DNA of 40,771 nucleotides from Candidatus Woesearchaeota archaeon (GTDB lineage Archaea; Nanobdellota; Nanobdellia; Woesearchaeales; GW2011-AR15): NCBI GenBank assembly GCA_016935095.1, contig JAFGRO010000081.1:1-40771 (forward strand), given 5' to 3'. Of this stretch, positions 4,481 to 40,771 are shown one piece after another. The notes below the pieces were generated by a model. It saw nothing but the letters and a program-made list of their open reading frames with translations, ran no database searches and had not been told where the DNA came from. The position numbers and the translations under genes are program-made. Positions within the stretch are counted from its first letter, which is position 1. The number at the start of each line of letters is the position of its first letter.

Positions 4481-4503
4481 TTTAGTGTAGTAAAGTAATT
4501 GAG

Positions 4504-4512
4504 TTATAAAAA
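4504..4512 (-). promoter_or_regulatory. TATA box for the PKD/coiled-coil gene
   Basis: TTTTTATAA on the minus strand is centred about 28 nt upstream of the ATG at 4480. This fits a leaderless transcript and decides the start of that gene. Confidence 0.6.
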
Positions 4513-4548
4513 CTTTTTTAAAAAATACGTGAAAAATAAGCTTACACG

Positions 4549-14264: not shown

Positions 14265-14265
14265 A

Positions 14266-17622: not shown

Positions 17623-17629
17623 TCCAAAC

Positions 17630-17640
17630 TTTTTTATACT
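17630..17640 (+). promoter_or_regulatory. TATA box of the DedA gene
   Basis: TTTTTTATACT is centred about 26 nt upstream of the ATG at 17661. A T-rich stretch (17641-17652) follows and may also help terminate the upstream transcript. Confidence 0.5.
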
Positions 17641-17660
17641 TTTATTTTTTATTTTAACCT

Positions 17661-18317: not shown

Positions 18318-18331
18318 TTAAAACAAAAACT

Positions 18332-18339
18332 ATTTATTC
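18332..18339 (+). promoter_or_regulatory. TATA box of the dolichol-kinase-like gene
   Basis: TATTTATT is centred about 26 nt before the ATG at 18361 and only 8 nt before the alternative TTG at 18343. It therefore supports the ATG as the start of a leaderless mRNA. Confidence 0.5.
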
Positions 18340-18360
18340 TCATTGAATTATACTAATTAT

Positions 18361-18945: not shown

Positions 18946-18946
18946 A
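18937..18946 (+). promoter_or_regulatory. TATA box of the cell-wall hydrolase gene
   Basis: TTTATTTAAA overlaps the stop of the preceding gene and is centred 28 nt from the ATG at 18969. Confidence 0.45.
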
Positions 18947-18968
18947 CTAAGCAATCTTACATTTTAAT

Positions 18969-21719
18969 ATGGAAAAAAAGGGGCAGTTAGTCAGGTTTAT
19001 CCTTGTAGGGATTACAATCTTATTCCTGGGGCTTTTGATTATTAATTATTCACTTAAACAAAAATCAGAATTTATTAAATCCCAGCTTGCACGTGATGAT
19101 AAATTTTCATTAGATAAATTTAATCTGATGGAAACAATTAATGCCTGCCTTGAAAAGGAAACAAATAAAGCGATTTTAAATCTAGGGTTGGAAGATAACA
19201 ATAAAATAAAAGAATATCTTATTGATAATTTGCCTTCTTGTCTGGACCTGTCTTTTTTTGAATTAAAAGGTTTTTTTGTAGACCTTGATTTATTAGATGT
19301 TAAATCAGAAATAAATGATAAAGTCATCCTGGTTGAGTTATATGTCCCTTTGGAAATAAGAAGAGAAAATTCAATAAGCACACCTGTTGAAAAGATTTCC
19401 TATTCCCTGAAGATAAGCTCTTTGGAAAAGATCAATAATGGATATATTGATTCAGAGTCAAAGGTTTTTTCAACAAATAATAAACTTTCTCTGATTCTTG
19501 CATCTGGTTCAGAAGTGCAAGATAAAGAGGGCATGCCTGCAGATTCAATAAGCTGGAGACTTCTGGATAAGAATTTTGACGGAAAAGAACATAATCAGAT
19601 TCTGACACAGATTGTATATGAAGGAAATAGTGTCCGGTTCAGTTCTCCGGTTAGTTTAAGCATAGATTATGTTGATGTTGCTTTGCCTGATGGTTTTTAT
19701 GAAGAGAAATTAACAATAGCAGAATATAATCCGGCTACAAAAACATGGACACCTCTTATTTCAACAGTTGATGCGGGCGCAAAAACAGTTTCTGCTGAAA
19801 TTAATGAATTGGGTATTTACGGGCTGTATGTTAGCTGTGATGCAGAAGCATGGGATCCTGATGTTTCGGGTCATTATTCATCTATCTGTCCTCTTCCACA
19901 AACATGTGGCTGCCAGGAAGTGATAGACTTTGGAACTTTGTATGTCGGCGCACCTTATATAGATGTTGTTGATAGGTGCCCTGATCCGGCTGAAGTCCTT
20001 AGAGGAGAATGTGATCTTCAATGTGGAACCTTTGTTGGAAGTGTTTTTTTGGGTCTTTATGGAGATTATCTTACAGGAGATGGCGGTGAAAAATGTGATG
20101 ACCAGCCTGAAAAATTAATTCAATTGCCTTCTGATATAGACCTTATTCAGCCTGGAGATATATTTTCAGAACCCGGAATTCCAGGTCATACGGGATTCTA
20201 TGCAGGAAAAGGTTATGTTGAGAATCATCTTGGATCAATTATGTATGAGGCTTTTATTCCTGATCCTAATGGAGAAGATGTAATTCTTCATTCATTTCCT
20301 CCGAAACTTGGTTTTTCTTTACTATCAACTTATCTTATAATTAGAGGTAATCCTACTTTAAAATTTTGTCGATATAAACAATGTGAGAGTTCATCATCAT
20401 GTACAATTAACCTGTGTGGAACAAAGATCATAGAAATTGCACGGAGAGCATTAGGACATCCTTATTGTTTTAGACCCAATGAATGGCCTATTGAATCAAA
20501 TCCTCCCTTAAATGGATTATGTCCTGGTCATGTAACCAATGAGTTTTGTAGTGTTTCTGAATATGAATCATTAGCAGGTTCAACAGGAAAATGCCCAATA
20601 GACTGCAGCACATATGTAAAATGGGTAATTAATAATTATATAAAAGAAAATATTCAGGATGATTATGAAAGCCATAGTCTTGCACTCCATGGAATGCCTT
20701 CTTCTTTGGATTTAGGAAAAAATTATGGAATTACTGTTGACGGAGACCCGACAATAGGGCAATATTCTTCCTCGGATCATTATGATTTACATCTTGATAA
20801 TTTACAGGCAGGAGATTTAGTATTTTTTGCTAAGAGTTATTCTGGTTGGTTAATGGGACATGTTGCTATATATGCAGGCAGTGGAAAAATAATCCATGCA
20901 GCAGGTTCAGGTCCGGCAATTGGTGTTGTTGAATATGACTTAAACGATTACATTTCAATACTGGAAACAAGCGGTGAAGGGATATATGTAGGTGCAAAAC
21001 GGATTTGTCCTGAAGCAACAAGCCCCTCTGCTTCAGTAAGTACTGTTGATACAAGTACTTTTCCGGAATTGTTTTCATATTCATCAAAAAAAAATCAAAA
21101 CCTTGCAGAGGCATTATCGAATATTGGAACTGAATTCAGGAACAAGGGTGTGACTATTTCAAAAGAATTGCTGGCAGCAATACTATCAACATTGAGAAAA
21201 GAAGTAGGTGGCGCATTCCTTCCACAAGAAGAAACTGGTGATTATGGTATGGGGCCAGGATGCACCTACACAGGTTCATGCAGGGGCAGCCCTTATGATG
21301 CTTTTAAAGATGGGGATGGATTAGGTGGATTGGATTATAAAGGGAGGGGATATATCCAGATAACTCATAGGTATAATTATCTGGCACATTGTGGTGAGGA
21401 ATGTGTAGCAGACCTGGATTCTGACAGGAATTTATGCAAATGCAATAATAGAAAATATTGTGAAGTGACTGATGAAAATATTTGTCCAATGGTAAAAGCT
21501 ATGAAACCAGAATACGCAGGTAAGATTTTTGTTAGTTATTATTTAGAAAAAAACCTTGTAGAAAAATCTAATTCAAAGGATTATGTAGATGTTGGCTATA
21601 GAATTAATGGAGCTATGTCTTATGGATATGCATTCAATAATATTGCACAGGAATATATTACACTATTTGAAAATCATCCGGATAAAACAAATGCTCTTTT
21701 GACAATATTAAATTCTTGA
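18969..21719 (+). CDS. Pilin-anchored multidomain cell-wall hydrolase (two NlpC/P60-like domains plus GH19/lysozyme-like domain)
   Basis: A 916-residue extracellular protein. Residues 1-27 are a pilin-like start (MEKKGQL plus hydrophobic helix). Residues 40-140 match the stand-alone protein at 13518. Residues about 170-290 are beta-rich, ending NELGIYGLYVS. Two NlpC/P60- or CHAP-like domains follow: Cys352 in LQCGTFV with His407 in GHTGFYAG, then Cys546 in IDCSTYV with His631 in GHVAIYAG and His643 in IIHAAGSG. The C-terminal part (about 700-916) resembles GH19 chitinases and phage endolysins, with Glu745 in RKEVGG and YKGRGYIQITHRYNY at 790. This set cuts bacterial peptidoglycan, which archaea lack. 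It is probably used against or for attachment to bacteria (inference). Confidence 0.85.
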   Translation: MEKKGQLVRFILVGITILFLGLLIINYSLKQKSEFIKSQLARDDKFSLDKFNLMETINACLEKETNKAILNLGLEDNNKIKEYLIDNLPSCLDLSFFELKGFFVDLDLLDVKSEINDKVILVELYVPLEIRRENSISTPVEKISYSLKISSLEKINNGYIDSESKVFSTNNKLSLILASGSEVQDKEGMPADSISWRLLDKNFDGKEHNQILTQIVYEGNSVRFSSPVSLSIDYVDVALPDGFYEEKLTIAEYNPATKTWTPLISTVDAGAKTVSAEINELGIYGLYVSCDAEAWDPDVSGHYSSICPLPQTCGCQEVIDFGTLYVGAPYIDVVDRCPDPAEVLRGECDLQCGTFVGSVFLGLYGDYLTGDGGEKCDDQPEKLIQLPSDIDLIQPGDIFSEPGIPGHTGFYAGKGYVENHLGSIMYEAFIPDPNGEDVILHSFPPKLGFSLLSTYLIIRGNPTLKFCRYKQCESSSSCTINLCGTKIIEIARRALGHPYCFRPNEWPIESNPPLNGLCPGHVTNEFCSVSEYESLAGSTGKCPIDCSTYVKWVINNYIKENIQDDYESHSLALHGMPSSLDLGKNYGITVDGDPTIGQYSSSDHYDLHLDNLQAGDLVFFAKSYSGWLMGHVAIYAGSGKIIHAAGSGPAIGVVEYDLNDYISILETSGEGIYVGAKRICPEATSPSASVSTVDTSTFPELFSYSSKKNQNLAEALSNIGTEFRNKGVTISKELLAAILSTLRKEVGGAFLPQEETGDYGMGPGCTYTGSCRGSPYDAFKDGDGLGGLDYKGRGYIQITHRYNYLAHCGEECVADLDSDRNLCKCNNRKYCEVTDENICPMVKAMKPEYAGKIFVSYYLEKNLVEKSNSKDYVDVGYRINGAMSYGYAFNNIAQEYITLFENHPDKTNALLTILNS

Positions 21720-26755: not shown

Positions 26756-28498
26756 TTACTCAACTTCATCCTTAAGCAGAATCTCAATCATCTTTGAGAA
26801 AGCAGGTCTTGTTATTAAGACACCATTGGTTACGCCGATCATTGTTGTTATTGCAAATCCCCTTAACAAGCCTGCGCCTGCAAATAATAAAGGAAGCATT
26901 GATGCCATTGTTGCAGCATAAGCCGCAACCACTATGAAGAATGCCTTTTTTAATTTTTGTTTCCAGTTAAGATAAGATTCTTTTTCTTTTTTAAGTGTTT
27001 CATCTGTAATGACAATCTGGTCATCAACACCCGTGCCGATAGCAACAATGATTCCTGCAATCCCTGCTATATCAAGATTCTGACCAAGTAACGCAGCAAC
27101 CCCTAGAATCAATAAAATCTCAGATGTAATTACAATAATAATAGGAACAGCTATCTTAATCTTCCTGTATCTTATATAAACAATCAATGTAACACTTGCC
27201 ATTGACAATAGCCCTATCAATAGTGCATTGCTTAGAAACTCTTTTCCGAGTGAGGGAGAGATTGTGTCAGTCTTTATTATATCCAGTTTAACAGGCAGGC
27301 TTCCTGTAATGAGCACTGTCTGCAGTTTTTTCATGTTCTTGAGTGCATCATTCCTAGCTTCCTGCATATTAATGCCGGTGCCTGATCCGGATATTGCAAT
27401 ATCTGTTGAAGCCTGTCCTTTTAGGTCTGCAGAAATCTTTAAAGTATCCATGTGAATATCATCAAGATAAAGATTCAGGTCCTGGGATAAATATTCCTCG
27501 CCGGAAGGGTCATATACTACTTCTAAGTTTTGGGTTACATCAGCTTGTCTTTGTGCAGCTTCACTGGATAGGCTTATTGTAAACCTGAACCTGCATGAAT
27601 AACCTCCCTGGATTGATCTGCATCCTGCACTTGGATCAATGCCTGCGCATTGTGCACTCCTGCAGACATAAGTTATGTCATTCCCTCCTAAAAATACACT
27701 TTTATTGCCAATCTTGGCTTCAAACTTGCCTTGTTTGGCTAATAGCTCACGAACCTCTTCTTCAGTAGCTCCTGCTATCTCAACGATAATAAACTGGTTT
27801 CCGGATAAGTCACCTGCACTCCTGATAACAACATCGCTTAATCCGTAGATATTTAACCTTTGGCTCATGCTCTCAACAAGGGCTTCAATATCCTGGGAAG
27901 AGGTCTTTTCCTCTGGCTGGAGCACAACTCTTGTACCGCCTTGCAAATCCAGTCCAAGCTTAATATTTGTTGTAGGAGCAGTATATACCCTTATGCCGAT
28001 GTCCTGAATTCCTTCAGCAATATCTTCTGTTTTTTTCTGGGTAATATACTTTGTTTTATTAATGGTTTTATTCAATGATTCATCAAAATCCTCTTCAATG
28101 ACTTTTATTCTCTCTGTTTCATTTAACTCGATTGTCCTGATTTCCGGTTTTGTCTGCAGGATGTATGATTTTTTTTCAGAAAAAAAGAAATTTTTCCTTA
28201 TTTTTGTTTCAATATATATTGTCTGGTTTACTTCAAGAGTATCTATAAAATCATAATAATCCTTCTCATTGTCTATTTTTACATCATTTATTAATACAAT
28301 TGTTTCCCTGTTCATTGGCGGTGTTTTTGGAGAGGAGCTTACCATTCCGGCCAGATGGGCAGAACTGTTTGTTATTATGTTTCTTATTGTAGCCCCCTTA
28401 TTCCAAGGGTTAGGGTTAATGGCCATTAACATTAATATAAAAAAAACTAGATAAATTATAATTCTCCAGTTTGAGAATATCTGTTTTAGCTTATTCAT
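26756..28498 (-). CDS. secD: Protein-export membrane protein SecD
   Basis: A 580-residue subunit that uses the proton gradient to help release proteins exported by SecYE. It has one N-terminal helix, then a large external P1 region with the signature LGLDLQGGTRVVLQPEE, VESMSQRLNIYGLSDVVIRSAG and a Cys-bearing segment (CRSAQCAGIDPSAGC). Five C-terminal helices follow, with GLLSMASVTLIVYIRYR and the proton-path motif GTGVDDQIVITDE. It overlaps the end of secF by 8 bp. A strong demand for secretion fits the many exported proteins in this window. Confidence 0.95.
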   Translation of the reverse strand: MNKLKQIFSNWRIIIYLVFFILMLMAINPNPWNKGATIRNIITNSSAHLAGMVSSSPKTPPMNRETIVLINDVKIDNEKDYYDFIDTLEVNQTIYIETKIRKNFFFSEKKSYILQTKPEIRTIELNETERIKVIEEDFDESLNKTINKTKYITQKKTEDIAEGIQDIGIRVYTAPTTNIKLGLDLQGGTRVVLQPEEKTSSQDIEALVESMSQRLNIYGLSDVVIRSAGDLSGNQFIIVEIAGATEEEVRELLAKQGKFEAKIGNKSVFLGGNDITYVCRSAQCAGIDPSAGCRSIQGGYSCRFRFTISLSSEAAQRQADVTQNLEVVYDPSGEEYLSQDLNLYLDDIHMDTLKISADLKGQASTDIAISGSGTGINMQEARNDALKNMKKLQTVLITGSLPVKLDIIKTDTISPSLGKEFLSNALLIGLLSMASVTLIVYIRYRKIKIAVPIIIVITSEILLILGVAALLGQNLDIAGIAGIIVAIGTGVDDQIVITDETLKKEKESYLNWKQKLKKAFFIVVAAYAATMASMLPLLFAGAGLLRGFAITTMIGVTNGVLITRPAFSKMIEILLKDEVE

Positions 28499-29468
28499 TT
28501 TTCTTTAAGTAGTATTTTAATATGGCAACATTGCCAACCCAGCATGCTATAAAATTTATTATTAAGCCGATAACCAGGATCAGCATGATTTGTTTTAATA
28601 CAACATTGTTAGTTAATAAAAATGAAATTAAAGTTGCAGCAATACCGGCTGCGCTCATTGTAAGCCCTGTTTTCATTGCTTCGTGCAGTCCTGTTGTTAA
28701 ATTTACATTTTTCTCTTTAATGAGTTTTGTTGAGATTAAGATTGAGGAATCAATACAATATCCGATGAGCATTAAAAAAGAGGCAATTCCACCTGAAGTC
28801 AGCTTAACCTGCATTGCAGTAATAATCCCTAATGTAATGAAAATATCCAAAAACGCAGATAACAAAGCTGCAAATGTAGCAAAAAGATTCCTGAAATAAT
28901 AAATAAAAACAAGGCCCATGCATAGAAACGCGAAAAACAAAGCAATAAACATCTCCCTGAAAAAGCTTTTGCCGAGTGAGCTTCCCATTGTTTCAACTGA
29001 AATATTATCTTTTGGAATCTGATCAATCTTTGTTTCCATAAATTCAATAATCATGGGTTCATCCTCAGGATTTGAATCCTCAATAATTATTCCCTGGGCT
29101 TCGCCTGAAATCTGCAATGACCTTACATTAATTGAGCTTTTCCTAAATATAGCTGAGAGCTCGTTTTGTATCTGCTCTGTGTTTAATGGCTTGTCTGTAT
29201 TGATTGTGATGGAGATGCCTCCGCTTAGAGAAACATCTCTCTGGATTAAGTCTCCAGTCATAACAAAATTAAATATTAAGCTTCCAAAAGAAAAAACAGT
29301 CAACAATATTAAAATAATCAGGAATCTGTTGAAATTAGTGTCATAGAACTTTGTAATATTAGAATAAAAATCCTTTTTTTTAGGCTTTTCTTCAGAAATA
29401 ATCTCTTTAGATTTCTTTTTTTCTTTTTTAGTTTTTTTAAATTTCCTTTTCCTATTTTTCTTTGACAT
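28491..29468 (-). CDS. secF: Protein-export membrane protein SecF
   Basis: The partner of SecD. After a 35-residue Lys-rich cytosolic extension, it has one membrane helix (FLIILILLTVFSFGSL) and a short P1 domain (DVSLSGGISITINTD). Five further helices follow, with VFIYYFRN, GYCIDSSILISTKLI and the conserved AMKTGLTMSAAGIAATLISF. The 325-residue length is slightly long for an archaeal SecF because of the N-terminal tail. It precedes secD, an order common in archaea. A TATA-like stretch lies about 30 nt upstream, in the 52-bp gap to the Tat lipoprotein genes. Confidence 0.95.
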   Translation of the reverse strand: MSKKNRKRKFKKTKKEKKKSKEIISEEKPKKKDFYSNITKFYDTNFNRFLIILILLTVFSFGSLIFNFVMTGDLIQRDVSLSGGISITINTDKPLNTEQIQNELSAIFRKSSINVRSLQISGEAQGIIIEDSNPEDEPMIIEFMETKIDQIPKDNISVETMGSSLGKSFFREMFIALFFAFLCMGLVFIYYFRNLFATFAALLSAFLDIFITLGIITAMQVKLTSGGIASFLMLIGYCIDSSILISTKLIKEKNVNLTTGLHEAMKTGLTMSAAGIAATLISFLLTNNVVLKQIMLILVIGLIINFIACWVGNVAILKYYLKKNE

Positions 29469-29520: not shown

Positions 29521-31443
29521 TTATTGAAGAAAAATTGGAGAAGTTTGAAGTACATTAACAAGGTCATAAAGAAATATATTAACACCATCTAAAAAGTAGG
29601 AATAAACTTTACTCATAGATGAATAAGTTCCTTCAGCAGATGGAATAATAAATTTTTTCCAAGTAGTATTAATATTTTTAGGTGTGTCATACCACATTGC
29701 TTCCATTACACTTATGCCTGACTTCCAGTTAATACCGTTTTTCATAAGGTTTGCTTCTAAATTTGGACCCATCATTTTAATTTTTGCTTTGCCAGGATCT
29801 ATTCCAGGGATATGAGAAAACCAAAGCCATGCAAATAAAAGAGGGTGATTATTTCCAAATTCCGCTTCATAACTTTCTTCATTTACAGTATAGATGACAT
29901 TTAGTCTTTTCTTTCCATATTTATCATAATTCCATTCAGGGATATAAAGAGCAGAGCCATCTGCCATATTAATTACAGCATATCTTTTTTCAGTAGCTAT
30001 TGCTCTAAAGTAACTTGACTGTTTTAAAAGAGGGATTTGTTGAGCAGGAGGCAGATCACGATAATAATGTTCTAAGTCCTCAAAAGTAGGATTATAAGGA
30101 TCATCAGGCATATGGTCTTTATATACAGGTACAGAGCAACCAGACGGCACGACCATCATTTCAAATGGGCTTGTTTGTTTTATTTCTCCTGAGAGAGTTG
30201 ATGAGGTAATGATATTTGTAATGAAGTCCTGATGGTAAAGTATATAATTAAGATACTCGCTGAAAGTAACTTCAGCAGGTCCAAAACGAAGCTGTCCATT
30301 AACCTCTCTAGATTGAGCCATGAATTCCTTTACAGCAAGATCAATCAAAGCAGTCATTGAAGCTGCTTCTAATGTATATTCTTGATCTCTTAAAATCACT
30401 CCCAAGAAAGGATCTGCAAGAATTTCATTGCTTCTTTCTTCATCAACAGAAATTAAATCAAAAAGCCCTCTAAGATAGTTCTCAATAGAAATTCTACTTT
30501 TATCATCGTATTTAGAAGCAGCAGACACATAATCTAATTCAAATTCCTTAATTAGCTCAGATGAAATTTTCTCAGCAAATGGGCTTAACATGGCTTGCAT
30601 ATATTGAGAATTAACCCAAACCTCATAGGTTTCTTCAGCAAATCTTCTTTGTTCTTCCTTAAAATCTTGATTTAGGGAGTCAAAAGGATTATTTGCAACT
30701 AAACTGCTTATACCATCATTTTTAAAAGCAGATTCAAGAGTATTTTGCCAAGTTTCTGAACCATATAAACCCATCATAACAGTTGCAGACCAGGTTTCTG
30801 CGTTATAAAAGCTTTCAAGAGCCCATGATTTATGGTAATCCTCATCTCCTAGAGATTCAATTACACCTTGCTTAAACCATAATTTACCTAAGATACTTAG
30901 GCAATTAACCACATAAGGAGAAAGACTGTCAGATTTTAAATTATATCTTTGACTTAAATCAATACTTATATTAGGTAGACTCGGCGGCAGATCATCATTC
31001 TTAAAATTCAAATTTGTGTGCTCTTGAGTGTTCACTTTAGTATTTGGATTATTAGATGAGACAACTTTAACAATATATTCAGACCACAGGCATAGCAAAG
31101 AGAAATTAATCAAGTCAACATTATCTCTGAAATAAACAGGCAAATCATCTTCCTGAATCTCGCTTGAGCTTAACTCATCCAAATACCTTTGGTATAAATC
31201 AACAGTATATTCAATTTTAGTAATCAATTCCTCAATAGAAGAGTTATAAGCTTCATCAGGAGTATAAGATTTAAATCCATGGACAATTTCATCTAAAGAA
31301 TAAGTAGTAGAAAAATTTCCCTTTGGGCCAGGAGCAACTAACGGATCAAATGCACTTGGACAGCATCCAGCTAATGTAGCACCTGCTGCTGTTAGAGCGC
31401 TTAATCTAAGAAAATCTCTTCTTGATAATTTTTTTTTTCCCAT
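29521..31443 (-). CDS. Tat-signal lipoprotein, small member of paralogous pair A
   Basis: A 640-residue protein of no family I recognise. It begins with a textbook twin-arginine lipoprotein signal: SRRDFLRL, a hydrophobic stretch, then LAGC. The mature protein is mostly helical in pattern (residues 60-400). It has a conserved C-terminal region, starting TSPFEMMVVPSGCSVPVY and continuing to NNHPLLFAWLWFSHIPGID, that matches the 810-residue protein at 34860 (HVIIRSGKRVPVY; KHPLLFGWMSYMTLPRLN). It probably folds in the cytosol and is exported by TatA/TatC, which are not in this window. The ATG is 15 bp after the 1053-residue gene, so they are cotranscribed. Confidence 0.8.
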   Translation of the reverse strand: MGKKKLSRRDFLRLSALTAAGATLAGCCPSAFDPLVAPGPKGNFSTTYSLDEIVHGFKSYTPDEAYNSSIEELITKIEYTVDLYQRYLDELSSSEIQEDDLPVYFRDNVDLINFSLLCLWSEYIVKVVSSNNPNTKVNTQEHTNLNFKNDDLPPSLPNISIDLSQRYNLKSDSLSPYVVNCLSILGKLWFKQGVIESLGDEDYHKSWALESFYNAETWSATVMMGLYGSETWQNTLESAFKNDGISSLVANNPFDSLNQDFKEEQRRFAEETYEVWVNSQYMQAMLSPFAEKISSELIKEFELDYVSAASKYDDKSRISIENYLRGLFDLISVDEERSNEILADPFLGVILRDQEYTLEAASMTALIDLAVKEFMAQSREVNGQLRFGPAEVTFSEYLNYILYHQDFITNIITSSTLSGEIKQTSPFEMMVVPSGCSVPVYKDHMPDDPYNPTFEDLEHYYRDLPPAQQIPLLKQSSYFRAIATEKRYAVINMADGSALYIPEWNYDKYGKKRLNVIYTVNEESYEAEFGNNHPLLFAWLWFSHIPGIDPGKAKIKMMGPNLEANLMKNGINWKSGISVMEAMWYDTPKNINTTWKKFIIPSAEGTYSSMSKVYSYFLDGVNIFLYDLVNVLQTSPIFLQ

Positions 31444-31457
31444 TTTAATTTTTTCAT

Positions 31458-34400
31458 TTACCTTCCATGATAAGTGACAAGTTCTTTAGATATTCCCTCA
31501 TATAAGCCAAGAGCAAAAATATCTGCCCAACCAGTATTAACACCAAATGTTCTAACAAATCCAAGAGCAGCTTTTCCAGTTGAACCAATATAAGGAGGTA
31601 ATAGTCCAATCAATGCATATGTGAAGAGGTAAGCTACAATAGAAATAGCATCTCTAGTAAGACCGGTTCCAAGCACTTCTTCAATCTTATTAACATTAGT
31701 GAATTTATCAACTTGCTCTTTTTTGACAGCATAAACAACATTAGCGTCATTTTCTCTGAATATAAGAGAATACTTATCAGCAGTAAAGGGTAAGAGAGCA
31801 GGGCTTTGGCTAATATCAGCAAGGACATAATATTCTTCGCCATAAGCATCTCTAATAGTTCTAGCTCCAGGAAAGTATCCTCCTAGGATGTTGAATGCTT
31901 GCTCACTGTCAATTTTAAATGGCAGAGGAGTAGCGATTTTTCCTTGATAATTAATAATTTTGCTGAAAAAACCGCCAGTATGTTCAGCAAAAGCATTGCT
32001 CAACGCATAAACTTGAATATCTTCTCTAAGAGGTTTTTGTGCAACTCCATCAATATTATAAATCTCTATTACCTCAGGTCTGCCGCCAAAATGTGTTTTC
32101 ATATTGTTGAGAAGCATTTGAGATTCAAAAGTAGCCTGTTGAAGAGGAGCATCAACTCTTTCAGCCCAAATTTCACCTGAGCCTGCTTTAACAGCTCTAG
32201 GTCCAATCATACAATGGAATGATTCTTTAAGTTCAGACATATCAGCAGAATATAATCCAGAATTAGCGTAGATTTCAGGTCCAAAATCAGAATCAGTAGA
32301 ATCTATTTCATCCAGTTTGATTCTTTTATTCTTATCATAAATAAAATACATACTAGGAGTTTTTTCATTTTTATTCCACACTATTATGCCAGTTTTAGGG
32401 GTTAGACTTCCATCTCTCTCTTTGAATGAGTATGTGGCGAATCTCACAAAAGAATATATATCAGCAGGTCCATCAAGCATACCTTCAAGAATATCTAGTT
32501 CAACAGCTTCTCTTCCAGAGAGATCAATTTCAAGATCTGAAGGTTTTTTCTGAATGCATAAAGCATTAGTTTTCCAGGCTTTTGCTTTACTTGGACTAAA
32601 ATTAAGATAATTTCCAAAATTATCTCTAAAAATCAGTTTTCCTAGCTCCATATTACCATTATGAGTCTGCAGTAAATTAATAGCAGATTCATCGCTTTCA
32701 TACTTTATTCCCCAATTCTCAGCTCCTTCTCCAAATTTGTCAAGAGTACCGTCAGACTTTCTTTTAGCTTTGCTAAACAGGATATCAATATTGCATAGAA
32801 ATTGAGATTGAGATTTTGTTTCATCAGCATATAAGACAGCACTGCCATCTCTTTTTTGCACTATTCTAGCATTATTATAAACAGTGCCATTATACCCTAT
32901 AGGGCCGATTAATTCAATTTCAAGTAAATTTCCATGCCATTGCATTGAATCAGCGATTCTTCCAGCAAAAGCAGACACATCTGAGTGAACAATAACTTCA
33001 TTATGATCGGTTATTGAAAACTCACCTAATTTTGATAGAGCGACACAATAATCAGCAGTAAGTTCAAGCAATCTATCAACAGTGAAATCTTCTGGAAGTA
33101 TTCCCTTAGCCACAAGCGGGTCAAATCTTCTATCACGCTTCATTTCTTCATAACATTCTCTTAATCTTTCCTGGACTAAAGGCTTCATGGTAAGAAAATC
33201 TCCTTCTCTATCAAAAAGAAGATTTTGCACTTGAGTTAACTGCTGCCTGTAATATTTAGTAAGCATAGCTTCAGAAATTGTTTTTGTAGCTCCTTTAATA
33301 TTAAACCTTCCTCTTAATAAAGCCCCTTTTTCTGGGGTGCCTTTTTTGTCACCCTTACTAAATCTGTTAGGCAGGTCTGCAATAATACTTTCAAGCACAA
33401 GCTTATTAACAATATTAGCTTCAAAATCAGCCTGGCTTAACTTAGAACTTGATAAGCCATTAAATCTAAGATAGTTATTATATGCTTCTACTTCCCCTCC
33501 TTGTTCTTGAAACCATTTGTTTCTTGTTTCAGTGAGCCAAATAAAAAAATTTGGATCTTTTTTAGCTAAAAAATCTTGGAAAGTTTCACCAGAACTACCA
33601 AACAATTCCTCTACCCATTCCCACATATTTAGATACCAGGGTTTACCTCTTTCTCCAACAGTATATTGTGCGCGGAGTTCTTCATCATATATATAATATA
33701 ACAGTTGATGAGTAAGGTCAAAAGCATCAATTTCTCTTAAGAAATTTTCATGGGCTCTAGTCATCTCTGTAGCCAAGTTTCCAATTTCAGCAGGCTCATC
33801 AGGGATTTGCTGGGTTTTGACACGTACAGCAGTAGTAGATATAAGAGTAGAGAGACTATCACCCATTTCTTTATTTATCATTCCACTTGGATTTGGTGGT
33901 GTTTTGCTTTCTTTATTTATCACCTCTAAATAATAATCATACTTTGGAACAGTGATTTCATCAGAAACATATGCATTCAATAATCTTTGGTTAAGGTCTT
34001 TATATACAAGCCCTGCTTGTAAGTTTCTTCCAAGCGATCTTTCAAAAACAGCAATACTCTCTCCAATAGACAATTGGCAGGCATATTCAAAAGCAGCACC
34101 AAGTTTAATTCTACGAAGTTTATGTTCACTTAAACCTTTTTCAGAGAGTCTTTGTTCAAGCCAATAAAGCCTTTTTAAATGAGCTGTATACTCGCGAAAG
34201 AGATATCTTTTTACTTGTTGTGATGTTAGTTGATAACCAAGTTCAGCATCACTATCAATATTCAATACTCTTTTAAACAAATCTTCTTTTTCATCCAGGC
34301 TGAGATCAGAAAGAGGTCTTACACTTGGAGCTTCGCTTGTTCCCTGGAGAAGGTCATAAAGATTGCTAATTCTATCTAATGTAGAATTACCGTTTTGAAC

Positions 34401-34619
34401 AATTGATTCCAAGCTTACAGAAGGAATTCTATCTAGGCCATAAATCTCAGCCTCTGAGCCATAAATAGCTTCAAGGACTGCATCTTCATCAGGCACAGGT
34501 GTTGCAATTGGCTTTGGAGTTGGAGATACTAGACCTGCAGGTACACAAGCTAATAATGGTAGACTTGCTACTGTTAAAGCACCTAATTTAAGAAAAAATC
34601 TTCTTGTTAATCTGGGCAT
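31458..34619 (-). CDS. Tat-signal lipoprotein, large member of paralogous pair A
   Basis: A 1053-residue protein with Tat signal (TRRFFLKLGALTVASLPLLAC). Residues about 130-600 are helical. Residues 625-960 look beta-rich and contain repeated lectin- or propeller-like segments (WHGNLLEIELIGPIGYNG; FGPEIYANSGLYSADM; GGYFPGARTIRDAYGEEYYVLAD). The last 100 residues hold a hydrophobic hairpin (AYLFTYALIGLLPPYIG) and an Asp/Phe-rich end. It aligns along its length with the protein at 37289 (SIGESIAVFERSLGRNLQAGLVYKDLN versus NESLAVFLKSLGKNYLSDTVYRDLN; FGPEI; GLY). A Shine-Dalgarno AAGGAGGA lies about 13 nt upstream of the ATG. It is large, exported and of unknown function. Confidence 0.8.
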   Translation of the reverse strand: MPRLTRRFFLKLGALTVASLPLLACVPAGLVSPTPKPIATPVPDEDAVLEAIYGSEAEIYGLDRIPSVSLESIVQNGNSTLDRISNLYDLLQGTSEAPSVRPLSDLSLDEKEDLFKRVLNIDSDAELGYQLTSQQVKRYLFREYTAHLKRLYWLEQRLSEKGLSEHKLRRIKLGAAFEYACQLSIGESIAVFERSLGRNLQAGLVYKDLNQRLLNAYVSDEITVPKYDYYLEVINKESKTPPNPSGMINKEMGDSLSTLISTTAVRVKTQQIPDEPAEIGNLATEMTRAHENFLREIDAFDLTHQLLYYIYDEELRAQYTVGERGKPWYLNMWEWVEELFGSSGETFQDFLAKKDPNFFIWLTETRNKWFQEQGGEVEAYNNYLRFNGLSSSKLSQADFEANIVNKLVLESIIADLPNRFSKGDKKGTPEKGALLRGRFNIKGATKTISEAMLTKYYRQQLTQVQNLLFDREGDFLTMKPLVQERLRECYEEMKRDRRFDPLVAKGILPEDFTVDRLLELTADYCVALSKLGEFSITDHNEVIVHSDVSAFAGRIADSMQWHGNLLEIELIGPIGYNGTVYNNARIVQKRDGSAVLYADETKSQSQFLCNIDILFSKAKRKSDGTLDKFGEGAENWGIKYESDESAINLLQTHNGNMELGKLIFRDNFGNYLNFSPSKAKAWKTNALCIQKKPSDLEIDLSGREAVELDILEGMLDGPADIYSFVRFATYSFKERDGSLTPKTGIIVWNKNEKTPSMYFIYDKNKRIKLDEIDSTDSDFGPEIYANSGLYSADMSELKESFHCMIGPRAVKAGSGEIWAERVDAPLQQATFESQMLLNNMKTHFGGRPEVIEIYNIDGVAQKPLREDIQVYALSNAFAEHTGGFFSKIINYQGKIATPLPFKIDSEQAFNILGGYFPGARTIRDAYGEEYYVLADISQSPALLPFTADKYSLIFRENDANVVYAVKKEQVDKFTNVNKIEEVLGTGLTRDAISIVAYLFTYALIGLLPPYIGSTGKAALGFVRTFGVNTGWADIFALGLYEGISKELVTYHGR

Positions 34620-34859
34620 TTTTTTCTAATTTTCCTCCTTCTCGCCTCTTTTAATCAGGAATTAGTTTTATTGAACTAATTATAACCGTTTGGTGGTTAA
34701 CAATATCTTATATTTAAATATATACATTGTTTAAACAATTTAAACATTAAGAAGCCTAGAGAATATTATTTTATATATAAAGGTCAGGTTGAAGTTTTTT
34801 AAACTAGAAAGTTTAATTTTATAACTAAAAAGAGAGAAAAAAGCATTTAAGGCAATCTT
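34620..34859 (-). promoter_or_regulatory. Intergenic promoter region between the two Tat pairs
   Basis: These 240 bp hold the pair A promoter. The Shine-Dalgarno is at about 34632-34640 and an A/T box TATATATTTAAATA (minus strand) lies around 34710-34724. Two inverted repeats are present: AATTAGTT/AACTAATT (34660-34667/34674-34681) and the perfect palindrome ATTGTTTAAACAAT (34726-34739) just upstream of the TATA box. TTAAACT/AGTTTAA (34799-34805/34810-34816) lies 50 bp after the pair B stop and could end that transcript. Confidence 0.5.
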
Positions 34860-37286
34860 TTATCTCCCAAGAAGAGCGCCCCACCAATAAAGAAATTCTG
34901 GAATGTTTTTTCCATACATTTCATGTAGTGTTTCTAGTGGCAAAGTCAATTCTGAAGGAACAAAATAAAGAGGATTAGTACCCAAAGGATCATAGTTTAC
35001 TCCCATACTATTTGCATAGTTTGCAGCTGCTTCATATGGTCTTAATACAGGTCTTGGACCTATTGTGTTTCTTATGCTGTAAAAAATAGATTCCCATGAA
35101 AAAAGAACTCCCTCTACTAATGCTTTTGCAGATTCAGGGCCAATTCCATGATCATATAATGCTTTTCTTATTGTTCCGGAAGCTGTTTCAGCGCCTTTGC
35201 CAGCAGCTAACTTATCAACGTTAAGTCTGGGCAGTGTCATGTAGGACATCCATCCAAACAGCAGCGGATGTTTTCTCCTGAAAAACTCACTATGGTTCAT
35301 TTGCTGTTCAAAGAACATGTCTTCATCACTTATAGGTATGTAGCAATAACTGTTGTCAGCGCGCTGGATTAATATGTATTTTTTACCTTCAGACCAATCA
35401 GTTAATGTATCATAAATTGGGATTATCTCTCCTCCAAGAAGTGTTTCAACTTGATTAACACCATTTGTAATTTCGCCTTGATCATCAAAATCAGGGATTC
35501 CGTCATAAACAGGAACCCTTTTTCCAGAACGTATAATTACATGCTCGAATGGGTCTTCTTCAGTGAGTTTCCCGTTTATTGCAGCTTTTGCAAAAGTATC
35601 CCTAAATCTGTTGCTTCCATATACTAAATAACGTGTATATTCTTCTGCAGTTAGCCTGTATTTTGTAAATCTAAATGCCTCCTGCATTTGTATATTTCTA
35701 TCTTGTCCATATGTTCCATCTGGTTTTTTTTCTCCATACCACCATATCCAGTTTTCTACAGATCCAGGGTCCATATATGATACAAAAGAAGAATTAGTAT
35801 TACTTGGGCTGCTTGCAAATACAAAATCAGCTCCTTCTATAAGCTCAGGCGGTTTTTCAAGAAAAGTAAACTTGTGTATACAACCATTAAGATCGCATGT
35901 TCTTGTAAATACACCTGGAACTATGATTTTTTTGCCATCTAGTTCAAACTCCGTGAACTTAGCTTCGACAATCACAGTATCTTTACTTACAGTTATACTG
36001 CCTGTTTCTTCTTGATATACATCTGTTGCGCTTGGCCAGCTATATTGAACTGTAATATAATCTCCTCTTGAGTTTCTACTTCTTTCTTTTACAGTTAATA
36101 ATTCTTCCATTGCCTTATCAATGCTATAATCATATATAGACTCAACCTGATCTGAGCTTAGGCCATTTTCTCTAACCTCTTCTTCCATTAGATTTGGCCT
36201 TAACATAGGAAGTTCAACTATCCTTGTCCTGAAATCAGGATCAAGATTTCCAATAGAAAATACTCTGGTTAGATAGCCTCTAACTTCTTCTTTTGAATTA
36301 AATTCAATAGAACCAGCTGCTTTAACAATATTGTTTTCAAAATGATTTACAAGAATATTGCTTATTTCATATCTTACAGGTGTTAGATCTATTTGCATTC
36401 TCATGCTATACAGCCAATAATTATATGCATACATAATATCTTCATCATCAGAAATTTCAAGAGAATATAAATCTGGAAAAGTGCCCTGAGCAAGCACATC
36501 ATTGATTTTCTCAACAAAAACCCATTTGCCCTCCTCTTGTTTTCCTAATTTCAGTTTTAAATAAAGCCCAGCTAATCTTTGGGCATTTGAAAAGCATTCT
36601 CTTGCATAACTTGTATGAAGCTCTTCAGGGCCATGTTTTTCAATAAGCCCGAGAACATTCCATTGATCCAGGAGCACAAGCAGTGCATCACTGAAATTCC
36701 TAATATTTATTTTTTTCCATGGGTGTGCCTCATCAGGCATTGTATATTTTTTTCCAGAGACATTTTCATAAGCGCCGACATATTCTTTTTTATAATCTTC
36801 TTCTAGAATCCCGAATAAGTGAAGACCAACCTGTTCAGCAAACCCTCCATCTGTTTGCATTAAGGTTCTTGCCTGGACAGTTTCACTTTGGATATTTACA
36901 TCTGCTAAGCTTGTATTTGCAAGAGCATATCTTCTTGCTAGTTCAGTATACAGCACTAAAAGCTGGTATTGGTGATATTCTATTTTAGCTCTTGTCTCTT
37001 CTGGCCAGCTGGATACACTTATGTAAGTGCCAGAGTCATCATCCTTTTCCAGCATTGCACCAAGATCTTTGAGCACTTCATTATTTTCTATTATTAATTT
37101 TTCAAGCTCTGAATTATCAAGATTTTCAGCAGAAGAAGGAAAGACATATTGAGAAACACCTAATGCACGCTGAATATATTCTGGCTCAGTTCCAGGAGCA
37201 GGACAACATCCAGCCAAGGCAGCAGCAGCAGCGGTTAGAGCACTTAATTTAATAAATTCTCTTCTTGTAAATTTTTTATTAGTCAT
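34860..37286 (-). CDS. Tat-signal lipoprotein, small member of paralogous pair B
   Basis: I start at the ATG at 37286 (MTNKKFTRREF), since the GTG at 37292 overlaps the upstream stop. TRREFIKLSALTAAAAALAGC is a strong Tat lipoprotein signal, near-identical in layout to that of the 640-residue paralogue (both continue SALTAA..LAGCCP). The 808-residue protein has a helical N-terminal half and a central beta-rich insert (TVSKDTVIVEAKFTEFELDG; CDLNGCIHKF) absent from the shorter paralogue. It shares the C-terminal region (RSGKRVPVYDGIPD; YCYIPISDEDM; HPLLFGWMSYM). The function is unknown. Its start lies 2 bp after the upstream gene, so it is coupled. Confidence 0.8.
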   Translation of the reverse strand: MTNKKFTRREFIKLSALTAAAAALAGCCPAPGTEPEYIQRALGVSQYVFPSSAENLDNSELEKLIIENNEVLKDLGAMLEKDDDSGTYISVSSWPEETRAKIEYHQYQLLVLYTELARRYALANTSLADVNIQSETVQARTLMQTDGGFAEQVGLHLFGILEEDYKKEYVGAYENVSGKKYTMPDEAHPWKKINIRNFSDALLVLLDQWNVLGLIEKHGPEELHTSYARECFSNAQRLAGLYLKLKLGKQEEGKWVFVEKINDVLAQGTFPDLYSLEISDDEDIMYAYNYWLYSMRMQIDLTPVRYEISNILVNHFENNIVKAAGSIEFNSKEEVRGYLTRVFSIGNLDPDFRTRIVELPMLRPNLMEEEVRENGLSSDQVESIYDYSIDKAMEELLTVKERSRNSRGDYITVQYSWPSATDVYQEETGSITVSKDTVIVEAKFTEFELDGKKIIVPGVFTRTCDLNGCIHKFTFLEKPPELIEGADFVFASSPSNTNSSFVSYMDPGSVENWIWWYGEKKPDGTYGQDRNIQMQEAFRFTKYRLTAEEYTRYLVYGSNRFRDTFAKAAINGKLTEEDPFEHVIIRSGKRVPVYDGIPDFDDQGEITNGVNQVETLLGGEIIPIYDTLTDWSEGKKYILIQRADNSYCYIPISDEDMFFEQQMNHSEFFRRKHPLLFGWMSYMTLPRLNVDKLAAGKGAETASGTIRKALYDHGIGPESAKALVEGVLFSWESIFYSIRNTIGPRPVLRPYEAAANYANSMGVNYDPLGTNPLYFVPSELTLPLETLHEMYGKNIPEFLYWWGALLGR

Positions 37287-37288
37287 CT

Positions 37289-40200
37289 TCACGGCCTTGC
37301 TGATCTTAAAGCATAATCAGCTAACTCAAAACCATAATGTGCAAAGAAATCAGGCATGCCTGATTTCATGAACCTGCTTCCCATTACAGCGCCTACTACA
37401 GCCTGCGCACCAACAGGAAGTCCTGGTGTAATTGCTCCAATAAGAGCAAATGCTCCAAGATATCCTCCAAGTATTAAAGCATCTTTAAGTGCCCCTGACT
37501 CCCATACCCTTTGCATTGTAGGAACAGTCTGATATACATCTACTTCATCTGCAGGCACGCCAATTGCAACAGAATATGAATCTCCTCTCCATAATATCTG
37601 GCCTATGCTTCCTATTGCTTCTAATAAATTAGGATTATTTTTTAATTGACCCTGGATATCATATACACTTATTGCATAGTATTTTGTTGTTTCAGGACGT
37701 CCTAATGGATCAAGTATTACTTCTCCGTTTTCATCAATTTTTGGTGCATAAAATATACCCTTATCTATTCCAATATGAGGCAGATCATAATGTTGTGAAA
37801 TAACAGGCACTACATCCCTGCCTCCATAAGGTATGTCTAAATATTCAGGAGCATTAAAATTATCATCTAGTAATTTAAACCATGATCCTGTTGAACTTCT
37901 TCTTGTATTGATAAATGAAAAAAGACGGCATTTTCCTCTTGTTGATGTTCTTCCACCTGTTAGATTATATGCTTCTGTCATATGAGGCATTGCAACAGAG
38001 GCTGTTTTAGTAAAAGGCCTATCTATTGCTCTCTGCAATGCATTTCTTAGTTCTACACCAGGCATTCTTCCGTATACGCTTGAGCCGCCTATTTGCACAG
38101 CATTGCCTCCTAGAATAAGAGTGAGGGCATCTTCAACACTTTGAACACCTAGTGTATAAAATCCGCCTGTATTTAATTGTATTTCAGGCCCAAATATAGC
38201 TTCAAATTCCTTTGTTTCAATTTGTCCAAAATAAGCACTTGGGAAAGTATCCTGCGTATACTTGACTACGCCTGTGCTAAGACCTGCTTTTCCATCCCCA
38301 TCTAAGTCTACATCTTTAGTATCCTGGTCACGGCATGCAAAATAATGGAGATTAGATTCATCTTCTAAAATCACTCCTGTCCTGAAATGATATTCTCCAG
38401 ACTTTCCTTTTTTAGGAAACACAGCAACCCTAACAAATTTTAGTTCTTCTCTTGTTAGTTTAAAATTATATATTAAATCACCAAGGCTTGAAGTTGTTAA
38501 CTTCTCCTTAAAATCATGAACTAACTTATAATCTCTTCCTTTAAGTGTGTTTGATAAGACTATTTCGATTTTTCCATCATTGAACTCTATTCCACTGTTG
38601 TTATTATCACGGATAAAAATCCAATCGCGGGCATGTGGTCCATATTGGCTTGAAAGATCAATTTTAAATTGTTCATCTCCACTTAAGTGCCATATTGTTC
38701 CACTAATAGGAGTAGAATCTGCACTTTCATAATATAATGCATGGTCTTCTCCTGCAACTTGCTCAATCCTCCTATTAGAAGAGTCTTCATAAAGAATCAC
38801 TTTTTTAACGCTTCCATGCCATTGCAGGCCTTCTCTGAACTTGCTTGTAAAAGTAGCTATTTCTTTATCAAGATTAACAGCTGATCCAAATTTTTGAGGG
38901 ACATTTTGCACTTTACTCATAAACAAATTAAATGCTTTTTCTGGACCATATTCCTCGCAGAATTTTGCAAAATATTCAAACCTTTCGGGAATTTTACCTT
39001 GTTCAACCATTGCATAAAACTTTGCTTCAATGTCTTCACGAACAGCCGGATCTTTTACAAGTTTTTGAAGTACATCCTCTTGGGTCATGGTTTCTCCTTC
39101 CCACTGCCATTCCTTGAACCAATCTAAAGCAACCCTGACTATTGATTCAATTGCATCATCAATTATCTCTTCGCTTGCTCCTTTTTCATAGAACAGTCTT
39201 TCAAGAATTCCTTTTTCAACAACCTCTGTCCTGAAATGAATAAGTGTTCTATCATATTCAGCTTTAGTTTCCGCGTCATCTTTATATCTAAGATCAAGCA
39301 GGCCATTTCTTTCAAGATAAGCTTCAAATGCTTGACTTTCATCTGAGAAACCGTTTGCATTGAGCCAATCCTGTTTTCTTTCAGCAAGCCATGTATTATA
39401 CTGCTCAAATTCAGAATAATTTGCTCTCATGTAATCTTCTACATTAAAGTTTGCATAAGGAGGATTTTCTAAAAGGCCTATTGCTTCAAGCCCCCTTAAA
39501 ACCCAGTCACCAGTATCTCTAATAACTTCTTGCCTTGTTGCCTTTTTTTTAACATCTTCTATTTTTTTATCATATTCTGCTTTTTCCCTTTCCCAGATTA
39601 CATGCAGTAAGCAACTTTCAAAATCATAAGCAGCCAGGCTGCGCACTAATCTTGCATGATTTTCAGCCATTCCTTGAGCAAGCTTTGCAATATCTTCAGT
39701 AGAAGTAATATCTCTATCTCTATCTGCTCTTACACGTGTTTCAGGTCCAGACATGCATAAAGGTGATTTAAAGGATTCAGCAGTTGGTAAATCCCATTCA
39801 ATTCCTTCAAGAGCCCTGAATAACTTATCACCATAAACTTCATCATAATATAATCTAATAGGCAGTGCATCAGGAGTTTTAGTTACAGTATACTCCATCA
39901 ACCCACTTTTTGTACCAAAATTCCATCTTTTAAAAGTATGGAGTAAATCATCAGGAGAAGTTATTTGAGTTACGTCTCCATTTGCAAAAGCATAATTACT
40001 TCTTCCAAAATGTTTTAATTCATCTACAATATGTGAATCTAGAATCCACATATTATAATTATATAAACCACTTTGCGCTAAATTGCTTGTAACAAGCACA
40101 GGAACATGAGCATAATTCAAATCTGGCTTTCCAAAATCAATATCTATAAATGTTGTGCCGACAATCTTTTGATCAGAAGTGTCTCCACTATTTTTTTTAT

Positions 40201-40663
40201 CAGATTTAATTGCACTTTTTCTAGTTTTTTCAGTGCCTCCTTTATCAACCCATGAGTAATTGAGTAATCTTTGAGCTGTTCTTCTTTTATAGAAATCATG
40301 CCATAATGTACTTTCTCTTTCTCTAAATCTTAATAAAGTGTTATTATTTATAAGTTTGCCGTCATCGCGCTCTATCTGTCTGTTTAAAAGATTATTTAAA
40401 TCCCTATAAACTGTGTCTGATAAATAATTCTTTCCCAATGATTTTAAAAACACAGCTAAACTTTCATTTAATACTAATAACCCGGAATGTGCCAGCATTG
40501 CGCCAGTTTCAGTCCAGTGCCTTTTGTTGCTATCAGTGATTCCCTCCATTAAATTTGCTTCAAAATCTCTTAATGCCCTGCTAAGGATATAAGCCTTATA
40601 TCCGAAATATGTCTCTGCAATTGCAATTGCATTTTCAGGAGTGTTAGGGTTATCTTCACTCAT
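37289..40663 (-). CDS. Large member of paralogous pair B, N-terminus apparently missing
   Basis: A 1124-residue protein homologous to the 1053-residue protein at 31458. Its first ATG (MSEDNPNTPEN) corresponds to about residue 125 of the paralogue, so a Tat signal and about 120 residues are absent. In-frame codons continue only 11 residues upstream to a TGA at 40697-40699, where inverted repeats begin. Helical segments dominate to about residue 560. A beta-rich part and an expanded C-terminal half follow (FGPEIQLNTGGFYTLG; ISQHYDLPHIGIDKGIFYAP). A hydrophobic hairpin (LILGGYLGAFALIGAITPGL) lies near the end, as in the paralogue. Either the gene was truncated by an insertion or the window edge is a repeat junction. 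Confidence 0.72.
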   Translation of the reverse strand: MSEDNPNTPENAIAIAETYFGYKAYILSRALRDFEANLMEGITDSNKRHWTETGAMLAHSGLLVLNESLAVFLKSLGKNYLSDTVYRDLNNLLNRQIERDDGKLINNNTLLRFRERESTLWHDFYKRRTAQRLLNYSWVDKGGTEKTRKSAIKSDKKNSGDTSDQKIVGTTFIDIDFGKPDLNYAHVPVLVTSNLAQSGLYNYNMWILDSHIVDELKHFGRSNYAFANGDVTQITSPDDLLHTFKRWNFGTKSGLMEYTVTKTPDALPIRLYYDEVYGDKLFRALEGIEWDLPTAESFKSPLCMSGPETRVRADRDRDITSTEDIAKLAQGMAENHARLVRSLAAYDFESCLLHVIWEREKAEYDKKIEDVKKKATRQEVIRDTGDWVLRGLEAIGLLENPPYANFNVEDYMRANYSEFEQYNTWLAERKQDWLNANGFSDESQAFEAYLERNGLLDLRYKDDAETKAEYDRTLIHFRTEVVEKGILERLFYEKGASEEIIDDAIESIVRVALDWFKEWQWEGETMTQEDVLQKLVKDPAVREDIEAKFYAMVEQGKIPERFEYFAKFCEEYGPEKAFNLFMSKVQNVPQKFGSAVNLDKEIATFTSKFREGLQWHGSVKKVILYEDSSNRRIEQVAGEDHALYYESADSTPISGTIWHLSGDEQFKIDLSSQYGPHARDWIFIRDNNNSGIEFNDGKIEIVLSNTLKGRDYKLVHDFKEKLTTSSLGDLIYNFKLTREELKFVRVAVFPKKGKSGEYHFRTGVILEDESNLHYFACRDQDTKDVDLDGDGKAGLSTGVVKYTQDTFPSAYFGQIETKEFEAIFGPEIQLNTGGFYTLGVQSVEDALTLILGGNAVQIGGSSVYGRMPGVELRNALQRAIDRPFTKTASVAMPHMTEAYNLTGGRTSTRGKCRLFSFINTRRSSTGSWFKLLDDNFNAPEYLDIPYGGRDVVPVISQHYDLPHIGIDKGIFYAPKIDENGEVILDPLGRPETTKYYAISVYDIQGQLKNNPNLLEAIGSIGQILWRGDSYSVAIGVPADEVDVYQTVPTMQRVWESGALKDALILGGYLGAFALIGAITPGLPVGAQAVVGAVMGSRFMKSGMPDFFAHYGFELADYALRSARP

Positions 40664-40703
40664 TGGATTATAAATCTCATATGGAACAGGGCAAAGTCAA
40701 CTA

Positions 40704-40760
40704 GCCCGTGTTTACACGGGCGTGCATTGTTCTGAGGTTGAAAAAGTGAAAGAACAATGC
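40704..40760. repeat. Right-edge inverted repeats abutting the truncated Tat-pair gene
   Basis: GCCCGTG (40704-40710) pairs with CACGGGC (40715-40721) across TTTA, and GCATTGTTCT (40724-40733) pairs perfectly with AGAACAATGC (40751-40760). The TTTA-loop stem resembles subterminal hairpins of IS200/IS605 elements. No transposase is visible, but the window ends 11 bp later. Confidence 0.5.
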
Positions 40761-40771
40761 AAAAAAAGAGC

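Follow-up and report, generated by a model that had tools for sequence, protein, structure and literature searches.

An orphan family of paired, putatively Tat-exported lipoprotein genes in a Woesearchaeota genome

Results

A family of large and small proteins encoded in three gene pairs

Four long, consecutive genes near one end of a Candidatus Woesearchaeota contig (C23; JAFGRO010000081.1) belong to a real and unusual orphan gene family that comprises at least three gene pairs, one of them broken. The window analyzed here is this entire contig of 40,771 bases, which stems from a genome of 1.77 Mb in 82 contigs with a completeness of 95.45%. A sequence-only reading of the window had described four consecutive minus-strand open reading frames (ORFs) of 640, 1053, 810, and 1124 amino acids (aa), and the ORF list bears out their coordinates and lengths. 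That reading grouped them into two tandem pairs, each of a large and a small gene. Both pairs are present (large1 with small1 and large2 with small2), and the count is extended to three by a further pair, large3 and small3, on contig C57. When a detached start of large2 on contig C72 is counted, all six genes are predicted to begin with a lipoprotein signal of the twin-arginine translocation (Tat) type and hence to encode proteins that may be attached to lipid. The pairs are not a confirmed system, because searches for their recurrence outside their own genome gave negative results.

As had been proposed, the large proteins align with one another, and so do the small ones. In local alignments compared with 60 shuffles after removal of the first 40 residues (large2, which has no signal in the window, was used whole), the three large-large comparisons gave z values of 46.7, 43.4, and 75.0, and the three small-small comparisons gave values of 23.0, 31.7, and 73.0, far above the shuffles. 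The identity over aligned columns was 25.2–27.1% for the large proteins and 24.7–30.2% for the small ones, and the previously named shared strings are seen in the alignments as FGPE, HP[LI]L, and SGxxxP[VI]. A relationship of large to small proteins beyond the signal peptide is not supported: eight of the nine comparisons gave z values from −0.3 to 1.7, and one gave 3.3. Comparison of the two family profiles returned an E value of 0.067 with a probability of 0.8%, and, when the signals were kept, the signal alone was aligned.

In the third pair, large3 (1132 aa) precedes small3 (796 aa) in the same order with a gap of 9 nt, and small3 ends 110 bases from the end of contig C57. Positions from about 13600 to 20000 of the C57 stretch (L008) are masked (N) and could conceal genes that are counted as absent. 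Gene order and tight spacing are retained in all three pairs; measured from the first start codon of each ORF, small2 and large2 overlap by 4 bp, and the gap from large1 to small1 is 14 nt. The top-scoring comparisons within the two families were large2-large3 (530) and small2-small3 (530). Because pairs 2 and 3 are closest to each other in both families, whole large-small pairs were probably duplicated, in line with the earlier suggestion that a two-gene exported unit had been duplicated. A hydrophobic stretch near the C-terminus is another feature common to all three large proteins.

A multicopy insertion element in large2

Within the window, large2 starts with MSEDN, lacks a signal, and its frame is stopped upstream. 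Its N-terminal part, an ORF of 121 aa that begins with a Tat lipoprotein signal, is found at the end of contig C72 (L018:3283-3648). The body of this fragment aligns with the N-termini of both large3 (z 7.5; 0 of 500 shuffles) and large1 (z 4.3; 1 of 500 shuffles), and shows a weaker likeness to small2 and small3 (z 3.5 and 2.7). At the break, C72 reads CTGTTCCAT followed by GGCAAAGTCAA, and C23 reads TTGACTTTGCC followed by CTGTTCCAT. The element between these ends has the 11-bp terminal inverted repeats and the target-site duplication of an insertion sequence; the ends alone were recovered. Its left end of 85 bases (L018:3629-3713) occurs at 13 places in the genome and its 82-base right end at 15. 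Of these 28 ends, 23 were examined as loci (8 left and 15 right), all of which lie at most 5 bases from a contig end. An exact 9-bp duplication pairs seven of the eight examined left ends with one of the 15 right ends, including C72 with C23, and, because of this pairing, the sequence data indicate that a multicopy insertion element splits large2, at least in the assembled population.

The insertion element underlies many of the contig breaks and lets contigs be paired. Its right end had no match in 10 searched relatives. Matches of the repeated end sequence reach into the flank at two other contigs, which had suggested a system peculiar to these genes. This notion was rejected, since those flanks are other genes and the sequence belongs to a general insertion element. 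Because contigs of ordinary genes end in the element as well, it is very likely that C72, C23, and C57 are part of this genome and not foreign contigs in the bin.

Tat-type lipoprotein signals

Seven starts could be aligned, those of the six family genes and that of a 242-aa Tat lipoprotein on contig C9 (L017:1994-2722), which has the same signal peptide on an unrelated body. R8, R9, F11, and L14 are invariant in all seven, and, by eye, a cysteine closes the hydrophobic stretch in all seven, shifted in the C72 fragment; the lipobox of small3, LEGC, is atypical. The C9 protein was rejected as a short family member, since the signal alone is common to both. The same C9 stretch contains a 422-aa ORF (L017:56-1324) with, by eye, the look of a LAGLIDADG-type homing endonuclease, and a Sec-type lipoprotein signal was seen by eye at positions 1465-2442 of the window.

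General signal profiles recognize four of the six family genes. In the NCBIfam run on the window proteins, TIGR01409 was above its cut-off for small1 and small2, and PF10518 exceeded its cut-off for the C72 fragment but fell short of it for small1 (E 3.8e-4), small2, large3, and the C9 protein. The sequence-only reading had all four window genes keep a Tat lipoprotein signal, which is correct for three; the 1124-aa ORF has none, its start being on C72. A profile built from the seven starts of the genome, which it then finds, gave seven strong matches there, namely the C9 protein and the three members of each family, besides two weak matches with E values of 0.45 and 0.54. Matches in the 10 relatives were weak, the best (E 1.4e-4) being in a same-genus genome, G002. 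Contig C71 of G002 (L045:2-127) contains a start with twin arginines and a lipobox-like cysteine that is cut by the contig end after 42 residues; it could be that of a Tat lipoprotein of any kind, a family relative included.

TatC was found in five of the 60 genomes searched (a set that includes the genome under study, itself without TatC), with one same-genus and one same-family genome among the carriers. In the same-genus genome (L027:1283-2166), a 68-aa ORF that resembles tatA by eye precedes tatC. A twin-arginine protein, presumably a radical-SAM enzyme in both genomes, is encoded about 5 kb (same genus) and 2.3 kb (same family) from tatC. The low count agrees with the previous remark that Tat lipoproteins are uncommon in small-genome DPANN archaea, as does a 2010 survey, which calls the combination of Tat signal and lipobox extremely rare outside haloarchaea (PMC2945643). 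According to another study, the presence of TatC is likewise patchy in Nanohaloarchaeota (PMC9765267).

Absence of relatives in the genomes and databases searched

A search with the large1 protein found a match in one of 60 genomes, and the profile of the large family in one of 371, in both cases the genome of origin, so that the check suggested earlier, for recurrence of the pair in other archaeal genomes, turned out negative. The small profile matched three of 371 genomes, namely the genome of origin and, with two short and weak matches, G008 and G356. The match in G008, which is of the same family (E 6.3e-5 over 105 positions), was taken as chance, as it lies in a 241-aa protein without a Tat signal; that in G356 was weaker (E 0.007). 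Pattern scans of the genome collection, which used two conserved peptides each and which distant relatives can escape, yielded 79 stretches for large, none of which was confirmed, and 120 stretches for small, one of which was confirmed. The latter is in an Anaerolineae bacterium and concerns the signal peptide only (59% identity over residues 1–37), in an ORF that reads by eye as an oligopeptide ABC-binding protein. There was no confirmed match in viral contigs for large2 alone, large, or small, none in phages for large3 (only a large protein was tried), and none in plasmids for small2 and large3.

Pfam and PHROGs, searched with all six proteins, and NCBIfam, searched with the four of the window, returned Tat-signal matches and weak matches below the cut-offs only. 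In a profile search of PDB sequences, the best E value was 0.036 with the large family and 0.05 with the small one, where the match falls on the signal peptide. Thus, as far as these collections are concerned, the proteins have no recognized family, as had been stated. In the open-licence literature, no description of such pairs was recognized from titles and starts of abstracts.

Predicted structure of small2

In the AlphaFold model of small2, the regions near residues 51–80 and 591–620 are better than the remainder. For residues 580–661, bacterial SH3b cell-wall-binding proteins are the top structural matches, and 12 of the first 15 entries in the list align to this segment. The Z values of SH3b matches were 8.9, 8.8, 8.7, and 8.2, including Ly7917 (8.9), PlySb (8.7), and lysostaphin (8.2), with root-mean-square deviations (rmsd) of 2.0–2.1 over 69–71 residues (2.0 over 71 residues for the match at 8.9), at a moderate local model confidence (block means of the predicted local distance difference test, pLDDT, of 53–77). 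A Foldseek search of a viral library placed a phage 'SH3 domain protein' eighth, with a probability of 1.00 and an E value of 0.017, and an endolysin SH3b protein nineteenth. A beta barrel in small2 is likely, the SH3b-like fold is moderately supported by the model, and an SH3b function of the barrel may serve as a lead. Residues 37–304 are matched by designed repeat, TPR, and 14-3-3 chains with a best Z of 8.7. Clathrin and other long Foldseek matches of small2 were disregarded because of query TM-scores of about 0.06, and the long viral ones likewise. That other families are missing from these structural lists carries no weight as evidence.

Gene setting and a motif upstream of two large genes

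The features of the window that bear on the gene pairs are listed in Table 1. On the minus strand, the transcription order is large2 (C-terminal part), small2, large1, small1, secF, and secD. The best NCBIfam matches of SecD and SecF are below the cut-offs, and SecD_SecF_C is above the Pfam cut-off. The neighbors are archaeal: models of the archaeal CCA-adding enzyme and of the archaeal ribosomal protein P1 scored above their cut-offs, as did those of L10 and L1.

Table 1. Positions in the 40,771-base window of the paired genes, their parts, and adjoining features.
Feature	Position	Strand	Basis or remark
secD	26756..28498	-	context
secF	28491..29468	-	context; 52 nt downstream of small1, same strand
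small1, 640-aa Tat lipoprotein (putative), second gene of pair 1	29521..31443	-	ORF; homologous to small2 and small3
Segment of small1 aligned with the SH3b-like segment of small2	29896..30165	-	alignment only
Tat lipoprotein signal peptide of small1 (RRDFLRLSALTAAGATLAGC), predicted	31339..31443	-	profiles and alignment
large1, 1053-aa putative Tat lipoprotein, first gene of pair 1	31458..34619	-	ORF; homologous to large2 and large3
Hydrophobic C-terminal stretch of large1	31593..31649	-	residues 991-1009
Tat-type lipoprotein signal peptide of large1 (RRFFLKLGALTVASLPLLAC), predicted	34518..34619	-	alignment
Near-palindromic motif TGTTTAAATTGTTTAAA	34730..34746	-	upstream of large1
small2, 810-aa Tat lipoprotein (putative)	34860..37292	-	ORF with GTG start; alignment with the other small proteins
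SH3b-like small beta barrel of small2	35307..35552	-	model residues 580-661; predicted, moderate confidence
Tat lipoprotein signal peptide of small2 (RREFIKLSALTAAAAALAGC), predicted	37179..37292	-	profiles and alignment
large2, C-terminal part, 1124 aa from first ATG	37289..40663	-	ORF, open frame 1135 codons; homology
Hydrophobic C-terminal stretch of large2	37424..37480	-
9-bp target-site duplication CTGTTCCAT	40681..40689	-	also at the end of C72
Right end of insertion element, 82 bp	40690..40771	-	contig ends inside the element
11-bp terminal inverted repeat TTGACTTTGCC	40690-40700	-	right end of the element

A near-palindrome, TGTTTAAA[TC]TGTTTAAA, is located 111–127 nt upstream of large1 and 121–137 nt upstream of large2, where, on C72, it has C in place of T (L018:3146-3162). 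Neither the window nor the 3.7-kb stretch of C72 has another site, even when two mismatches are allowed, and none was found in the partly masked 20-kb stretch that contains pair 3. The sites upstream of large1 and large2 themselves supplied the pattern, so figures for its chance occurrence are after the fact. The motif is a possible candidate operator of large1 and large2.

Discussion

A tentative reading: a lineage-specific surface-binding complex

The reading that we favor, tentatively and with room for others, is that the pairs are co-expressed, exported by way of their Tat-type signals, anchored to lipid, and act together as a lineage-specific surface-binding complex. Each pair would thus give rise to two proteins that a lipid anchor fixes to the exterior side of the cell membrane, where they act jointly. 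The large protein would form the main body, with its anchor at the N-terminus and a hydrophobic stretch near the C-terminus, and the small protein would combine a TPR-like helical scaffold with an SH3b-like barrel as the binding site for a wall polymer or a peptide. The family would be specific to its lineage and have spread by duplication of whole pairs. A setting in which variety pays and single copies are dispensable would be contact with another cell, be it partner or prey, or with the wall of that cell; the insertion within large2 suggests such dispensability. The parts of this reading are inferred with support that falls from the lipid-anchored surface location to the joint function of large and small, to the binding of a polymer or peptide by small, and finally to cell contact; binding and partner contact are weakly indicated.

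The contact reading has a fitting context, which is no proof. At positions 18969-21719, the window encodes a 916-aa protein with an N-terminal hydrophobic stretch, an NlpC/P60 domain (E 7.9e-11), and, below the threshold, a stretch that resembles chitinase class I (E 0.022), possibly a wall hydrolase secreted by an archaeon. Woesearchaeota have been proposed as degraders of bacterial walls in two studies (PMC9723730; PMC12352652). In Nanoarchaeota, hypothetical surface proteins have more non-synonymous single-nucleotide polymorphisms and have been linked to contact with the host (PMC6142677).

Several results weigh against the proposed surface-binding complex. Some concern the models, which are poor for small2 (mean pLDDT 41.9) and too poor for use for large1 (34.4). 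Models without a clear match typically reach a best Z of 7–8, so that 8.9 exceeds the background by a modest margin, and the list with the SH3b matches also has a designed helical repeat at 8.7. Foldseek found nothing at E 0.001 or better in the PDB, with clathrin chains listed first. SH3 profiles gave no model for the three aligned segments at E values up to 10, with HMMER filters that drop weak matches, and there was no significant TPR profile match. With 12 of 72 invariant columns, compared with 71 of 494 in the rest, the SH3b-like segment is hardly more conserved. Other results concern export. No Tat match was obtained for large1 in Pfam or NCBIfam, its signal being assigned by alignment, nor for small3 in Pfam. 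Because neither the Pfam profile (at E 0.001) nor the same-genus protein (at E 10) found TatC in the genome, and TatA was found below the cut-off only, Tat export in this cell is no more than putative; possibly, tatC is missing from the assembly because of a gap or a masked stretch, given 95% completeness and 82 contigs. Finally, no relative with co-occurring large and small genes was found elsewhere in the genomes searched, and the adjacency to secF and secD could equally suggest a housekeeping role in the envelope.

Comparison with known exported proteins

The six genes share twin arginines, a hydrophobic stretch, and a cysteine with the haloarchaeal Tat lipoproteins described in PMC2945643. 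However, haloarchaea have many such substrates, whereas seven strong signal matches, six of them in the family, were found here, in a genome in which no TatC was found. The predicted barrel of small2 superposes on the bacterial SH3b wall-binding domains of lysostaphin, ALE-1, and phage endolysins (rmsd of about 2 over 69–71 residues), but their identity to small2 is 10–13%, and neither a Pfam SH3 match nor a lysin domain match was obtained. The surface proteins of episymbiotic DPANN archaea, from Nanoarchaeota and the SPEARE proteins of nanohaloarchaea, are likewise large, putatively exported, and without known relatives. SPEARE proteins have protease, adhesion, and nuclease domains, according to PMC9765267; these were undetected in the proteins described here, which would instead form a two-gene, putatively lipid-anchored unit.

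How small-genome archaea recognize and hold partner cells is an open question, for which large, putatively exported proteins that are found in one genome only and were probably duplicated as a unit are good candidates, with the SH3b-like barrel as a guess at the domain involved. A puzzle is posed by seven genes with Tat-type lipoprotein starts in a genome without a detected TatC, while a same-genus genome has tatC and a tatA-like neighbor.

Alternative explanations

The paralogues might instead be structural, as alternative coats in a lipid-anchored layer, sheath, or surface-layer-associated lattice of the cell itself. We consider this unlikely, although the large size of the proteins, their several paralogues and lipid anchor signals, the hydrophobic stretch that every large protein has near its C-terminus, and the adjoining secDF genes would suit it. 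One of the three copies is broken by the insertion element, and Pfam returned no surface-layer, Ig-like, or PKD match, unlike for the protein encoded at positions 2930-4594 of the window. The latter, of 554 aa with two PKD domains and coiled-coil-like stretches, is perhaps a second kind of surface protein.

Two further explanations appear improbable, to much the same degree. According to the first, the proteins capture nutrients, as lipid-anchored binders like SusD-type TPR or ABC substrate-binding lipoproteins that pass polymers or peptides to a transporter. The helical-repeat-like N-terminal part of small and its lipoprotein signal recall SusD-type proteins, and the sole signal-peptide match in the genome collection is the Anaerolineae ORF that resembles, by eye, an oligopeptide ABC-binding protein. 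That similarity, however, stops with the signal; no substrate-binding or transporter family was matched, the six family proteins had no Pfam SusD match at E values up to 1, and, beside the pairs, only secF/secD and no nutrient transporter gene were seen by eye. Moreover, a SusC-like partner needs an outer membrane, which archaea mostly lack.

According to the second, the pairs are cargo of a mobile element or virus, foreign genes that were retained for a time, expanded, and are now decaying. A protein search found no relative of large1 in two same-genus genomes, and the genome contains a multicopy insertion element with one copy within large2, but this element is present at many other loci too. 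In addition, the G+C content is near that of the window, viral contigs, phages (large3), plasmids (large3, small2), and PHROGs gave no confirmed match, and three diverged pairs (about 25–30% identity) with five of the six genes open point to long upkeep.

An extension of the favored surface-binding complex, to which we would give less credence than to any explanation weighed so far, is a two-protein lipid-anchored apparatus that would take hold of peptidoglycan on a bacterial partner or prey cell, together with nearby wall hydrolases (NlpC/P60, 18969-21719), its Tat-type lipoproteins being exported without a recognizable Tat translocase. Least probable of all, the proteins would be exported enzymes of an unknown type that fold in the cytoplasm, as Tat signals usually mark proteins exported in the folded state, but no enzyme family was matched at a useful score, and inspection of the invariant residues by eye revealed no obvious catalytic motif. 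Elsewhere in the window, at positions 14266-17622, a 1118-aa protein with a signal-like start contains a weak GH113-like stretch (E 1.6e-4, below the cut-off).

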